Source: Haploplasma modicum ATCC 29102 (GTDB taxonomy: Bacteria > Bacillota_I > Bacilli_A > Acholeplasmatales > Acholeplasmataceae). Taken from it: a stretch of 64,000 nt of DNA. The position numbers and the translations under genes were made by a program. The first letter of the stretch is position 1. The number at the start of each line of letters is the position of its first letter. Below the pieces are notes generated by a model that had not been told where the DNA came from, did no database searches, and was given only the letters and a program-made list of their open reading frames with translations. The stretch is from the NCBI RefSeq assembly GCF_000687835.1, contig NZ_JHYB01000002.1:186001-250000 (forward strand). The letters run 5' to 3'. Below are positions 17,033 through 60,322 of the stretch, in pieces.

Positions 17033-17370
17033 GGGGATGTACTGGTCTCGATAGGGTACCGTAAAATATATAAGCATGTCTTGGTTACTCAAGTAAAAAA
17101 GTCGGGTTATTTAATAACCGGAAACCAAAATTTACAATTCGCTGCTTAAGATAAAGTAGCCAGCAATAATAGAAGCACTTACCTTTTATTTGCGCTCTTA
17201 ACTGTAAGTTATATTTAACTAACTCCTTTAAGTTAAATGAATTATAAAGGATTGTACTATTAACTTTTGTTTGTTTAGTTAATAGTATGAAAAACATAAA
17301 TAAACTAAACATGTAGAAAGTATATTTGAAAGTTTCTTACACAGGGGTTCGACTCCCCTCATCTCCACCA
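17033..17370 (+). ncRNA. ssrA: Transfer-messenger RNA (tmRNA)
   Basis: The 5' end GGGGATG (17033-17039) pairs with CATCTCC before the encoded CCA at 17368-17370. The T-arm is seen as AGGGGTTCGACTCCCC. The inferred resume codon is GGA at 17120, preceded by TAACC as in the Bacillus tmRNA context. The frame gives G-N-Q-N-L-Q-F-A-A then TAA at 17147-17149, that is a tag (A)GNQNLQFAA, shorter than the Bacillus tag. With SmpB (not in this window) it rescues stalled ribosomes. A -10-like TATAAC lies at 17022-17027. Confidence 0.95.
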
Positions 17371-23060: not shown

Positions 23061-23070
23061 TTTAATCTTA

Positions 23071-23259
23071 CGATGAAGAGAATAACCATTATATAAGATT
23101 TACTAATAAGCGATTTAGGAATTGGTGTAAGCCTAAAAGTAATAATATAATGTAATCAACTTGGAGTAAATTAATAATTGAGTGCTAGATATTTTATCTG
23201 GAACTAAGGTGGTACCGCGTATTTTATACGTCCTTAGCTTATTAAGGACGTATTTTTTT
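23071..23259 (+). promoter_or_regulatory. T-box riboswitch (isoleucine) before ileS
   Basis: The T-box AAGGTGGTACCGCG is at 23206-23219. The bulge UGGU matches a tRNA with A73. The terminator ATACGTCCTTA (23226-23236)/TAAGGACGTAT (23242-23252) is followed by seven T. A full-length Stem I is visible: TTTAGG...CCTAAA caps a loop with TTGGTGTAAG, an AGCGA-type bulge lies below, and ATC (23155-23157) is a plausible Ile specifier. Uncharged tRNA-Ile would favour read-through. No promoter is evident between sepF and this element. Confidence 0.92.
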
Positions 23260-35927: not shown

Positions 35928-36017
35928 ACTATAGTTTTGCTACGGGGTGCCCAATGGGCTGAGAGATTAACATCGACTCGCATAACCTGATCTAGTTAGT
36001 ACTAGCGGAGGGATAGT
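35928..36017 (+). promoter_or_regulatory. TPP (thi-box) riboswitch
   Basis: The aptamer shows the conserved CGGGGTGCCC, GGGCTGAGAGA, ACCTGATCTAGTTAGTACTAG and GCGGAGGGA blocks. ACTAT (35928-35932) and ATAGT (36013-36017) can close P1. It precedes a thiamine transporter gene, so bound TPP should lower expression. Confidence 0.95.
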
Positions 36018-36038
36018 TTAAAATATTTTTTTAACTAT

Positions 36039-44041: not shown

Positions 44042-44475
44042 AATTAGTAGTCCAAAGAGTAAGCTCTGCAAGTGTTGTTTCAGACGGAGTCTTAACAGGA
44101 AGCATAAATACAGGTTTTTTAGTTCTACTTGGTATTCATAAAGATGATAGTTTAGAATTAATTCCTAAATATGTAAAAAAATTAATTAATCTTAGAATTT
44201 TTGAAGATTCAGCAGGTAAATTAAATTTAAGCATTAAAGATGTCTTAGGTGAGATTTTACTTGTTTCTCAGTTTACACTATATGGTAATGTTGGAAGAGG
44301 TAATAGACCATCTTTTATAGATGCTAAAAATCCGACTGAAGCAATAATAATCTATGAAGAATTTATAAATGATCTAAGTAAGGAAATACCAGTCCAAACT
44401 GGAGTGTTTGGAGCAAATATGCAAGTATCACTCACGAATGATGGCCCAGTGACAATTATAATCGAAGATTTATAA
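44038..44475 (+). CDS. dtd: D-aminoacyl-tRNA deacylase
   Basis: This 145-residue DTD starts MKLVVQRVSSASVV. The catalytic region is LLVSQFTLYGN and the substrate-proofreading Gly-Pro motif is NDGPVT near the C-terminus. It hydrolyses D-aminoacyl (and glycyl-tRNA-Ala) esters. The rel-dtd order and ATGA overlap match the usual Firmicutes arrangement. Confidence 0.95.
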   Translation: MKLVVQRVSSASVVSDGVLTGSINTGFLVLLGIHKDDSLELIPKYVKKLINLRIFEDSAGKLNLSIKDVLGEILLVSQFTLYGNVGRGNRPSFIDAKNPTEAIIIYEEFINDLSKEIPVQTGVFGANMQVSLTNDGPVTIIIEDL

Positions 44476-44504
44476 TTGACAAATAAGCATTTATAATATA
44501 AAAT
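44476..44504 (+). promoter_or_regulatory. Promoter of the hisS-aspS operon
   Basis: TTGACA (44476-44481), a 17-base spacer and TAAAAT (44499-44504) directly follow dtd. Transcription should start near 44511, just before the T-box. A shifted TATAAA at 44497 is an alternative -10. Confidence 0.7.
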
Positions 44505-44520
44505 ATAGAAGTAATTAAAT

Positions 44521-44661
44521 CGTTGATGACAAAGGATGTTGGAAACAACTGTGACACCTTTTGAGACATACATACATAATTAAGCGCTAGTACATACTAG
44601 AATTAAGGTGGCACCGCGGAAAGTATTCGTCCTTATCTTTTTTAAAGACGAATATTTTTTA
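44521..44661 (+). promoter_or_regulatory. Miniature T-box riboswitch (Asp/His) before GNAT-hisS-aspS
   Basis: The T-box AAGGTGGCACCGCGG is at about 44604-44618. The terminator ATTCGTC/GACGAAT is followed by TTTTTT near 44660. Stem I is extremely short. AAAGG (44531-44535) pairs with CCTTT (44557-44561), and GTTG (44538-44541) pairs with CAAC (44546-44549) capped by GAAA. The 3' loop TGTGACA lies between. There is no AG bulge or distal loop. GAC (44553-44555) and CAC (44555-44557) overlap in the specifier position. The UGGC bulge fits a tRNA with G73 (Asp), not C73 (His). A CTAGT/ACTAG hairpin stands in for Stem III. Confidence 0.85.
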
Positions 44662-44678
44662 TTTATATAGGAGGATTT

Positions 44679-45176
44679 ATGATTTATTTAAAAGAAGTGA
44701 GTATAAATGACGCAGAAGATTTGTTTTTAATAGCTAAAAACGATAATGTCACTAAATATCTAACATGGCAATCACATAAAGATATTAGCCAAACAAAAGA
44801 TGTCATCAATAATTTTTATTTAACAAAAGTTAATAGTAATTTACCAAATAGTTTTGGAATTTATCTAGATGATTTAGATAAAATAATTGGTATTATTGAT
44901 TTTTATTTAGAAGATAACTACCCATTTGTTGGATATTTTCTAGATGAAAATTATTGGCATAAAGGAATTATGACTGAAGCACTAAATAAAATTTTAGATA
45001 TAGGATTTAACAAGTTAAATTTTCCTGTAATTAGAATAAGTCACTTTGAGGAAAATATTGGCTCAATGCGAGTTATTTTAAAAAATAATTTTAAACTTAT
45101 AAATAAAATAGTAAAAGATGATAATAAAACTACATTAGTATATGAACTTAAGAAAGGTGATTTTAATGATAAATAA
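44679..45176 (+). CDS. GNAT-family N-acetyltransferase (RimJ/RimL-like)
   Basis: This 165-residue protein has the GNAT pattern: SINDAEDLFLIAKNDNVTKYLTWQSH, IGIIDFYLEDNYPFVGYFLDENYWHKGIMTEALNKILDIGF and RISHFEENIGSMRVILKNNFKLI. The acetyl-CoA loop (Q/RxxGxA) is degenerate as KGIMTEA. It resembles the RimJ/RimL-type subgroup, but the substrate is unknown. GGAGG precedes the ATG. It is the first gene behind the T-box and overlaps hisS by 11 bases, an unusual insertion between T-box and synthetase. Confidence 0.82.
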   Translation: MIYLKEVSINDAEDLFLIAKNDNVTKYLTWQSHKDISQTKDVINNFYLTKVNSNLPNSFGIYLDDLDKIIGIIDFYLEDNYPFVGYFLDENYWHKGIMTEALNKILDIGFNKLNFPVIRISHFEENIGSMRVILKNNFKLINKIVKDDNKTTLVYELKKGDFNDK

Positions 45177-46428
45177 AGTAAAAGGAACATATGATGTTCT
45201 ACCAAATGAACTAGGGAAATGGTATTTTTTAGAACAAAAAATAAAAGAGATAACAAAAAAATATCATTATTATGAATTAAGAACACCAATTATGGAATAC
45301 AGTAATGTTTTTCACCGTGAAACAGAATTAAGTGATATGGTGACTAAAGAGACTTATAATTTTGTTGATAAAGGAAATAGAGATGTTACGCTAAGACCAG
45401 AAGGAACTGCTGGTATTATTAGATCTTATGTTGAAAATAAGTTATATGTAGCAAGTGATCTCCTTAAAGTATATTATGTTGGTCCAATGTTTAGATATGA
45501 AAGACCACAAAAAGGTAGATACCGTCAGTTTAATCAATTTGGCTTAGAAGCAATTGGTTCTAAGAGTAGTTTGTTAGATGCCGAGTTAATAAAGTTATCA
45601 AATGACTTTATTGAAAGTTTGGGTTTAGAAAATGTTACAATTCAAATTAATTCAATTGGTGATAGTGATTCAAGAACTAACTATTTAAATGCATTAGTTT
45701 CCTACCTCACACCATTTTATGAAGAACTATCAAATGATTCTAAAGAAAGATTTAAAAACAATCCTTTAAGAATCTTAGATAGTAAAGACTTAAACGATCA
45801 AAAAATAATTGAAAATGCACCAAAACCAATCGATTATTTATCAAGTTACTCAAAAAAATATTTAGATGATGTTTTAAAATACTTAGAAATTTTTAATGTA
45901 AAATATAATTTAAATAATAAACTAGTTAGAGGATTAGATTATTATAGTGAAGTAGTATTTGAAGTTTTAGCTGATATAAAAGGTCTTGGCAATGGTAATG
46001 TTTTAGGTGGTGGTGGTAGATATGAAAATCTAGTTAGTGAACTAGGTGGACCACAGACTAGTGCAATTGGTATTGCTTTTGGCATTGAGAGATTATTACT
46101 AGCAATTGAACACCAAGAAATAGTAAAAGAAGAAGTAAGTGAAATAGATTCATTCATTATTACATTTAGTGAGAACGAAAAACTATATGGGGCTAAAATA
46201 TTTAATTTACTAAGAGATAAAGGTTTTAATGTAGATATTGAATTTAATAATAAAAACTTCAAACAACAATTAAAAAAAGCTTTAGCTAAAAATAGTAAAA
46301 CACTAATAATTATTGGTGAAAATGAACTTAAAAATGAAACAGTGACTTTAAAAAATACAAGAACAGAAATTCAAACAGAAATTAAACTAAAAGATTTAAT
46401 CACTAACTTAGAAAAGGAAATTAAGTAA
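45166..46428 (+). CDS. hisS: Histidyl-tRNA synthetase
   Basis: This 420-residue class II synthetase starts MINKVKGTYDVLPNE. Motif 2 region is FRYERPQKGRYRQFNQFGLEAIG, and the histidine-specific segments RGLDYYSEVVFE and GGGRYENLVSELGGPQTSAIGIAFGIERLLLA carry the His A box and motif 3. The C-terminal anticodon-binding domain is present. ATG 45166 is preferred because AAAGGTGA (45153-45160) lies just upstream. It runs straight into aspS. Confidence 0.95.
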   Translation: MINKVKGTYDVLPNELGKWYFLEQKIKEITKKYHYYELRTPIMEYSNVFHRETELSDMVTKETYNFVDKGNRDVTLRPEGTAGIIRSYVENKLYVASDLLKVYYVGPMFRYERPQKGRYRQFNQFGLEAIGSKSSLLDAELIKLSNDFIESLGLENVTIQINSIGDSDSRTNYLNALVSYLTPFYEELSNDSKERFKNNPLRILDSKDLNDQKIIENAPKPIDYLSSYSKKYLDDVLKYLEIFNVKYNLNNKLVRGLDYYSEVVFEVLADIKGLGNGNVLGGGGRYENLVSELGGPQTSAIGIAFGIERLLLAIEHQEIVKEEVSEIDSFIITFSENEKLYGAKIFNLLRDKGFNVDIEFNNKNFKQQLKKALAKNSKTLIIIGENELKNETVTLKNTRTEIQTEIKLKDLITNLEKEIK

Positions 46429-48162
46429 ATGAGAACACATTATAATAATGAATTAACAATTAAAAATTTAAACCAAACAGTAACCTTAAATGGTTGGGTA
46501 AGCAAAGCAAGAAACTTAGGAAGTCTATTATTCGTTGACCTAAGAGATAGATTTGGAATAACTCAACTAACTTTTCATGAAAAAAGTGTTTATGAACTTG
46601 CTACAACTTTAAAAAACGAATATGTAATTGAAGTTACAGGAAAAGTAATCGAACGTCAAAGTAAAAATCCTAATATGGTAACAGGAGAAATTGAAGTCTT
46701 AGTTGATAGTCTAACAATTCTTAGTGAGGCTAAACAAACACCAATAATCATTAATGATACTAATAATGTATTAGAGGAAACTAGATTAAAATACCGTTAT
46801 CTTGACTTACGTGGTTCAAAACAACAACAATATTTAATTAAACGTCATGAAATTACACAAGCAGTTAGAAAAGTTTTAGTTGAAAAAGGATTTTATGAAC
46901 TTGAAACTCCTTTTTTAGGAAAATCAACACCTGAAGGAGCAAGAGATTATCTTGTACCATCAAGAGTTCATCCTTCAAAGTTTTATGCACTGCCACAATC
47001 ACCACAAATGTATAAACAATTATTTATGGTTGCTGGATTTGAAAAATATTTCCAATTTGCAAAATGCTTTAGAGACGAAGATTTAAGAGCAGACCGTCAA
47101 CCTGAGTTTACTCAAATTGATATTGAAGCATCATTTGTTAATGAAAATGATATTATGAGTTTTGTCGAAGAAATGCTTAGACGTACTTTTAAAGAAGTAT
47201 TAAATATTAATATTGAAACCCCATTTTTAAAAATGCCATATGAACATGCAATAAGTAAATATGGTAGTGATAAACCAGATATGCGTTTTGAGATGTTAAT
47301 AGAAGATTACACAAATATTTTTAAAAGTGTTGATGTTCCTTTTTTTAATAATGAAGAACATATTAGCGGTATTATTGCAAGTAATTCAAGCTCATTTACT
47401 AGAAAAAAGATTGATGAATTAACAAATCTTGTTAAGAAAAATCATGGTAAGGCACTAGCTTTTATTAAAAATACAAACAATGAGTATACCGGAAGTATTG
47501 CTAAGTTTTTAAATGAAGATACATTTAATAAATTAAATTTAAAAGACAATGAAATTTTATTTTTAGTTCCTGGAAACTATGATGATGTTAAAAATAGTTT
47601 AGGTGCTCTTAGAATTGAAGTAGCAAAAGAATTAGATATCATTGATAATAACAGTTATAAATTTTTATGGGTTACAGATTGGCCACTGCTTGAATTTGAT
47701 TTAGAAACAAATAGATATTATGCAAAACACCATCCATTTACTGCACCAAAGACAATTGAAGAATTAAGAGATACACCAAAAGAAGCAATCGCAAGAGCTT
47801 ATGATGTTGTTTTAAATGGATATGAACTAGGTGGTGGATCAATTAGAATCCATCAACAAGCAATGCAAGATTTAATGTTTAAAACATTAGGGTTTACCGA
47901 ACAAGAAATTAAAGAACAATTTGGTTTCTTCGTTGATGCATTATCATATGGTACACCACCACATGGCGGAATTGCTCTTGGTTTAGATAGACTTACAATG
48001 TTAATGACAAAGACTGAAAATATTAGAGATGTTGTTGCATTCCCTAAAACCCAAAATGCTAGAGACTTAATGATGGATGCACCAAGTTTTGTAACTGATC
48101 TTCAGTTAAATGAATTACATATCAGTGTAGCCAAAGAGGATAAAAAAGATGAAAAGAAATGA
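46429..48162 (+). CDS. aspS: Aspartyl-tRNA synthetase
   Basis: This 577-residue bacterial-type AspRS has an N-terminal OB anticodon-binding domain (VTLNGWVSKARNLGSLLFVDLRDRFGITQLTF). Motif 2 is FRDEDLRADRQPEFTQIDIE, and the bacterial GAD insertion occupies the middle. HHPFTAP and motif 3 GIALGLDRLTMLM complete the core. ATG follows the hisS stop directly. It ends overlapping comEB by 14 bases. T-box control fits its role if the specifier is GAC. Confidence 0.95.
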   Translation: MRTHYNNELTIKNLNQTVTLNGWVSKARNLGSLLFVDLRDRFGITQLTFHEKSVYELATTLKNEYVIEVTGKVIERQSKNPNMVTGEIEVLVDSLTILSEAKQTPIIINDTNNVLEETRLKYRYLDLRGSKQQQYLIKRHEITQAVRKVLVEKGFYELETPFLGKSTPEGARDYLVPSRVHPSKFYALPQSPQMYKQLFMVAGFEKYFQFAKCFRDEDLRADRQPEFTQIDIEASFVNENDIMSFVEEMLRRTFKEVLNINIETPFLKMPYEHAISKYGSDKPDMRFEMLIEDYTNIFKSVDVPFFNNEEHISGIIASNSSSFTRKKIDELTNLVKKNHGKALAFIKNTNNEYTGSIAKFLNEDTFNKLNLKDNEILFLVPGNYDDVKNSLGALRIEVAKELDIIDNNSYKFLWVTDWPLLEFDLETNRYYAKHHPFTAPKTIEELRDTPKEAIARAYDVVLNGYELGGGSIRIHQQAMQDLMFKTLGFTEQEIKEQFGFFVDALSYGTPPHGGIALGLDRLTMLMTKTENIRDVVAFPKTQNARDLMMDAPSFVTDLQLNELHISVAKEDKKDEKK

Positions 48163-59986: not shown

Positions 59987-60322
59987 GTCAGTGGAAGATG
60001 ATCGAGCCTTTTATAAGGTTAGGAAAGTCCATACTAGCACATTCTGTGATGAATGTAGTGTTTGTGTTTAAGGAAAAAATAACTTAAAGTACCATTAGGT
60101 AACGGCGATTGATGTTCTTTAACTGAGAACTAGATCATAAAGTGCCACAGAAACGAGTTTACTAGTAATAGTAAAATGAAACGCGGTAAACCCCACAAGC
60201 TAGCAACCCAAATTATGGTAGGGGCACGTATTTAGCGAACTAGAAGCGAAGATATGCTACTTAGGTAGAGATAAATGATCATAACTCGAAAGAGATACAA
60301 AATATGGCTTATGCACACTGAT
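59987..60322 (+). ncRNA. rnpB: RNase P RNA (bacterial type B)
   Basis: Conserved parts seen are GGTTAGGAAAGTCCAT near the 5' end, GGTAACGGCGATTGATG, ACAGAAACGAG, GGTAAACCCCACAAGCTAGCAA split over P-stems, GGGGCACG and the 3' AGAGATACAAAATATGGCTTAT. TCAGTG (59988-59993) pairs with CACTGA (60316-60321). A -10 TATAAT is at 59976-59981 just after pnp. It cleaves tRNA 5' leaders. Ends are estimated to within a few bases. Confidence 0.95.

Follow-up and report, generated by a model that had tools for sequence, protein, structure and literature searches.

A short T-box leader without elbow-binding arm and Stem II precedes the hisS-aspS operon of Haploplasma modicum and very probably reads tRNA-Asp

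Genomic context of the leader

The window, i.e., the whole stretch of 64,000 nucleotides that was analyzed, belongs to a genome of 1.22 Mb with a completeness of 99.75%. Its gene content points to the Acholeplasmataceae, and one genus of the family has phytoplasma-sized genomes. Downstream of relA/spoT and dtd it contains a T-box leader (44511-44662), which is followed by an operon of three genes encoding a GNAT acetyltransferase, HisS, and AspS (Table 1). The presence of both synthetase genes, which had been assumed in an earlier sequence-only reading, was confirmed by protein family matches. In 45 of 47 relatives, hisS is likewise separated from the T-box by a GNAT-like gene of similar size; a second T-box of the genome (L001) also precedes a GNAT-like gene. 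The stop codon of dtd is located at 44475, and a promoter begins directly behind it. Transcription is expected to start near 44511, just ahead of Stem I, and the spacing between promoter and Stem I is repeated in nearly all relatives. The window also contains a TPP riboswitch (35933-36030), the tmRNA (17033-17370), and a class B RNase P RNA (59990-60316), all of which score above the Rfam cut-off.

Table 1. Positions of leader elements and operon genes in the window
Feature	Position	Strand	Basis
Sigma-70-type promoter TTGACA-N17-TAAAAT	44476..44504	+	11/12 consensus matches; Stem I spacing recurs in relatives
Ultrashort Stem I	44522..44567	+	sequence; compensatory changes in relatives
Basal helix GTT/GAC, 3 bp	44522-44524 with 44565-44567	+	sequence; compensatory changes in relatives
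Lower helix AAAGG/CCTTT, 5 bp	44531-44535 with 44557-44561	+	sequence; compensatory changes in relatives
Distal 4-bp hairpin GTTG-GAAA-CAAC, in place of the IDTM-bearing arm	44538..44549	+	kept in nearly all relatives, sequence and loop changed
Specifier GAC (Asp) and conserved purine A	44553..44556	+	reading of leaders and other T-boxes of the genome
CAC overlapping GAC	44555-44557	+	sequence
Unstructured linker where Stem II and IIA/B pseudoknot would be	44568..44581	+	no predicted structure
AAGCG (RRRNG motif), Stem III CTAGT/ACTAG, AA	44582..44602	+	sequence; two-sided changes at all five pairs in relatives
Antiterminator AAGG/CCTT and GCGGA/TTCGT	44605..44634	+	RF00230 match, covariation, folding
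T-box bulge UGGC	44609-44612	+	within antiterminator
Competing intrinsic terminator hairpin and U tract	44618..44662	+	folding
GNAT acetyltransferase, operon gene 1	44679..45176	+	PF13302
hisS, histidine--tRNA ligase	45169..46428	+	TIGR00442
aspS, aspartate--tRNA ligase	46429..48162	+	NF001750 and TIGR00459

The leader has the parts of a transcriptional T-box

A cmscan search of 401 bases revealed a match to RF00230 at 44514-44637, which covered the full model (1-219) with 46.7 bits and an E-value of 2.6e-9. The default Rfam scan of the window did not report the leader, as this score is below the RF00230 gathering score of 93. A score under the cut-off is expected, because most of Stem I is missing. 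Together with the T-box signature and the competing terminator, the match verified that a T-box is present where it had been proposed. The 5-bp helix, the specifier loop, the 4-bp helix capped by GAAA, the sequence GTGACACC, the UGGC bulge, and the terminator of the sequence-only reading were all found. Its outline of Stem I was correct with respect to these helices, while it had overlooked a 3-bp basal helix and a K-turn between the basal helix and the lower helix, both of which are supported by the relatives. The specifier GAC matches the GUC anticodon of the tRNA-Asp of the host, and the UGGC bulge can pair with the acceptor end GCCA of this tRNA. The predicted folding energies without tRNA are -16.2 kcal/mol for the terminator versus -6.0 kcal/mol for the antiterminator. 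With about 125 nt up to the end of the antiterminator, the leader may be among the smallest tRNA-sensing switches.

The elbow-binding part of Stem I and Stem II are both missing

It had been claimed that the distal part of Stem I that binds the tRNA elbow (IDTM) is absent. This proved to be true, because only 15 nt, comprising a 4-bp hairpin, lie between the lower helix and GUGAC. A longer Stem I further upstream was also looked for and was not found; the consensus promoter, which puts the start just before Stem I, rules out a hidden upstream extension. The description of the reduction was incomplete in one respect, namely that the absence of Stem II had been overlooked. A hidden Stem II with an S-turn and the IIA/B pseudoknot was sought in the linker, but none was found and no structure was predicted. 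In all 28 ultrashort leaders that were aligned (see below), 12-18 nt devoid of predicted structure lead to Stem III, while this region spans 31-58 nt and is predicted to be structured in asnS, metS, pheS, thrS, and other T-boxes of the same genome.

A conserved GNRA tetraloop was considered as a tertiary contact and was rejected, because its occurrence among ultrashort leaders is confined to the same genus. The ileS T-box of the genome (L009, window positions 23064-23238) has an IDTM and no Stem II, and with 79.6 bits it is also below the Rfam cut-off. Stem II also seems to be absent from the T-boxes of alaS, trpS, and tyrS in the same genome, although the class with this feature has been described as glycine-specific.

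Conservation of the leader in the family

The leaders of 48 hisS genes of the family were read for comparison. The T-box signature and a hairpin resembling a terminator are present in all 48, and 33 of them do not have a long Stem I, so that the comparison of Stem I lengths suggested earlier showed the short form to be recurrent. An ultrashort Stem I with the specifier in a side loop was found in 30 leaders, a specifier in an apical loop in two, an intermediate form in one (G033), and a long Stem I in 15. The two apical-loop leaders are also transcriptional and precede hisS operons: in G020 (L170) the structure is AAGG-ACCUGUGACAA-CCUU with GAC in an 11-nt hairpin loop, and in G019 (L173/L242) it is AAUUGU-CUGUGACA-ACAAUU with GAC in an 8-nt hairpin loop.

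A covariation analysis was performed with an alignment of 28 ultrashort leaders. The proposed structure was paired in 97% of the cells, and 11 pairs had changes on both sides, compared to a mean of 4.6 in shuffled alignments; none of 500 shuffles reached this number. When the pairing partner was slid as a control, no more than 4 two-sided changes were obtained. Covariation was present in the basal helix, which varies from GUC/GAC to GCC/GGC among the relatives, in the lower helix, in Stem III, and in the antiterminator. The distal hairpins share little sequence, and nearly all of them can still pair. As judged from these alignments, the structure of the leader exceeds chance, i.e., it is kept in the relatives while the sequence changes.

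These results bear on the possibility that the leader is a decaying relic, in which Stem I degenerates and the terminator alone acts as a constitutive attenuator. Such a decay could explain the loss of the IDTM in several lineages, the apical-loop forms in G020 and G019, and the observation that no T-box was found at hisS in the phytoplasma-sized genomes of the family. However, the variable helices show compensatory changes, and GAC, the AAGGUGG-ACCGCG sequence, and the promoter spacing are invariant across about 30 genomes, which makes a relic highly improbable.

The specifier points to tRNA-Asp

In the sequence-only reading GAC and CAC had been regarded as overlapping specifiers for Asp and His. 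A leader of dual specificity, at which tRNA-Asp and tRNA-His both trigger read-through, would be in accordance with an operon that carries both synthetases and with CAC in 34 of the 48 leaders, including that of the window and L122 (GACACC, read by eye). In addition, the S. aureus hisS-aspS T-box has been termed a histidine T-box (PMC7927825), and a two-codon T-box was reported by Saad et al. (2013), according to its citation in PMC7778990, with which the leader shares candidate codons that overlap in the specifier loop. Nevertheless, GAC is present in 47 of the 48 leaders, while CAC is missing from 14, which have CAA (12) or CGC (2) instead, and the CAC status changed at least five times on the HisS tree. 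With its last C, CAC would reach into the lower helix, whose first pair contains this base. In the other clear T-boxes of the genome, which were read by eye, the specifier is followed by a purine and then by the helix (asnS AAC-A, metS AUG-G, pheS UUC-A, serS UCU-A, alaS GCU-A, thrS ACU-A, ileS AUC-A, and trpS UGG-G). GAC-A fits this register and CAC-C does not; the CAC register also lies outside the frames considered by TBDB (PMC7778990). Where CAC is present, it is a consequence of GAC, the purine, and the lower-helix C that is paired with a G.

The discriminator bases were also compared. The tRNA-Asp of the host (anticodon GUC) has G73 and its tRNA-His (anticodon GUG) has C73, and with the relatives included, G73 was found in all 19 complete tRNA-Asp genes and C73 in all 29 tRNA-His genes that were read. 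The proposal that UGGC favors tRNA-Asp is thus in agreement with its pairing with G73. The only T-boxes of the genome with UGGC are those of serS, trpS, and hisS-aspS, and the respective tRNAs Ser, Trp, and Asp carry G73. Among the 48 leaders the bulge is UGGC in 13 and UGGU in 35, and the UGGG that would fit C73 is absent. Two observations count against the Asp reading: UGGU offers G73 only a G-U wobble, and the T-box of the hisS operon in G075 (L163) has GGC at the specifier position and has kept CAC. TBDB leaves the discriminator unscored for His (PMC7778990), and therefore the discriminator argument is weaker than the conservation argument. The second codon, unlike that of a two-codon T-box, is neither conserved nor matched to the register and to C73. 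The claim of two specifiers was therefore abandoned in favor of GAC, and dual specificity is regarded as quite improbable.

Proposed mechanism

The promoter, the structure, the GAC specifier, the UGGC bulge, the terminator, and the operon were established by sequence and comparison. They indicate that the leader is very probably a tRNA-Asp-specific, transcription-terminating T-box, whose only parts are Stem I, which carries the specifier in a side loop, an unstructured linker, Stem III, and the antiterminator/terminator switch. During transcription, GAC of the short Stem I would pair with the anticodon (GUC) of tRNA-Asp. The GCCA end of an uncharged tRNA would then pair with UGGC, Stem III would stack on the duplex, and the antiterminator would hold, so that RNA polymerase could read into the GNAT-hisS-aspS operon. 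Charged tRNA-Asp would be unable to pair at UGGC, and the terminator would form. Aspartate starvation would thus raise HisS together with AspS.

Binding would rest on two base-paired contacts and stacking. Because neither the elbow contact nor the Stem II lid is present, it should be weaker, or more tRNA should be needed, than in the known classes. As transcriptional T-boxes are said to be generally dependent on a long, IDTM-bearing Stem I (PMC7583486), the leader could also be weak. Candidate stabilizers of the complex are the purine after the specifier (by stacking), the K-turn geometry, Stem III docking, and a protein. The last of these leads to a refinement of the tRNA-Asp reading, which overlaps with it: a trans-acting helper (e.g., a protein that binds the K-turn) or a contact with the tRNA that is invisible in the sequence might replace the IDTM and Stem II. 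It is tempting to speculate in this direction, as the K-turn is kept, a complex with a K-turn protein has been described, and thrS gained in vitro function with a protein fraction (PMC7583486). However, no conserved extra motif was found, and the sequences of the distal loop and the linker vary freely, so that such a helper or contact is considered rather unlikely.

Comparison with known T-box classes

Four classes of T-boxes have been described, in which binding is augmented by the IDTM, Stem II, or both (PMC10482949). According to another account, the IDTM is generally indispensable for transcriptional T-boxes, and those with a natural truncation rely on Stem II (PMC7583486). Judged by its predicted structure, the leader fits none of the four classes, as it has neither the long Stem I with IDTM of classes I and II nor the Stem II with S-turn and IIA/B pseudoknot of classes I, III, and IV, and yet it has a terminator. 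The translational control that is usual for classes III and IV is not indicated, because the terminator competes with the antiterminator and the ribosome site AGGAGG (44669-44674) lies downstream of the terminator.

With class II (B. subtilis glyQS) the leader shares transcriptional control, a bare linker in place of Stem II, and Stem III with the antiterminator, but the Stem I of glyQS is long and includes the IDTM, and the class is described as glycine-specific (PMC10482949), while the leader has no IDTM and an Asp specifier. The shortened Stem I without IDTM and the position of the specifier, a side bulge flanked by two helices, resemble class IV (Actinomyces ileS), which in contrast is mostly translational and has kept Stem II. 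The ultrashort class III (Nocardia and Mycobacterium ileS) is also devoid of the IDTM, and the G020 and G019 leaders share its apical-loop specifier; however, this class needs Stem II and is mostly translational. TBDB mentions class I sequences with a truncated Stem I (PMC7778990), and some truncated transcriptional T-boxes may already be listed there.

Origin and distribution of the short form

On the HisS tree the long and short forms of Stem I interleave, with at least four changes, and both forms occur within one genus (g10) at equal distance from the promoter. Repeated loss of the IDTM is the better reading of this pattern, because regaining it from nothing is unlikely; the number of losses is sensitive to weak branches and presupposes that lineages did not exchange the operon. 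Taken together, the short leaders of this Acholeplasma-like family probably represent a fifth T-box architecture, which is transcriptional and reads tRNA-Asp only via the specifier-anticodon and UGGN-acceptor contacts. The IDTM would have been lost several times independently from ancestors that were already devoid of Stem II, with a hairpin loop carrying the specifier as the extreme. The current view that the IDTM and/or Stem II strengthen tRNA binding, and that transcriptional T-boxes generally need the IDTM (PMC10482949, PMC7583486), could be put to the test with this leader, which would reveal how little RNA suffices to read a tRNA. At one operon, and always without Stem II, the family shows Stem I in long, intermediate, ultrashort, and hairpin-loop form. 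This natural series provides ready constructs for asking which contacts matter in the brief interval until the terminator is reached.

A model of the ultrashort form was built from the 28 leaders and applied to 160 genomes of the order and 395 genomes of the class. All of its top scores fell at hisS genes of this family. The same form was not found elsewhere in these genomes: a long Stem I was seen at the further high-scoring sites that were inspected, and the weaker hits were read in part. The model also detected a twelfth T-box of the genome (L216, G000:C2:339137-339305), which had been missed by RF00230 and is located before a tyrS-like gene.
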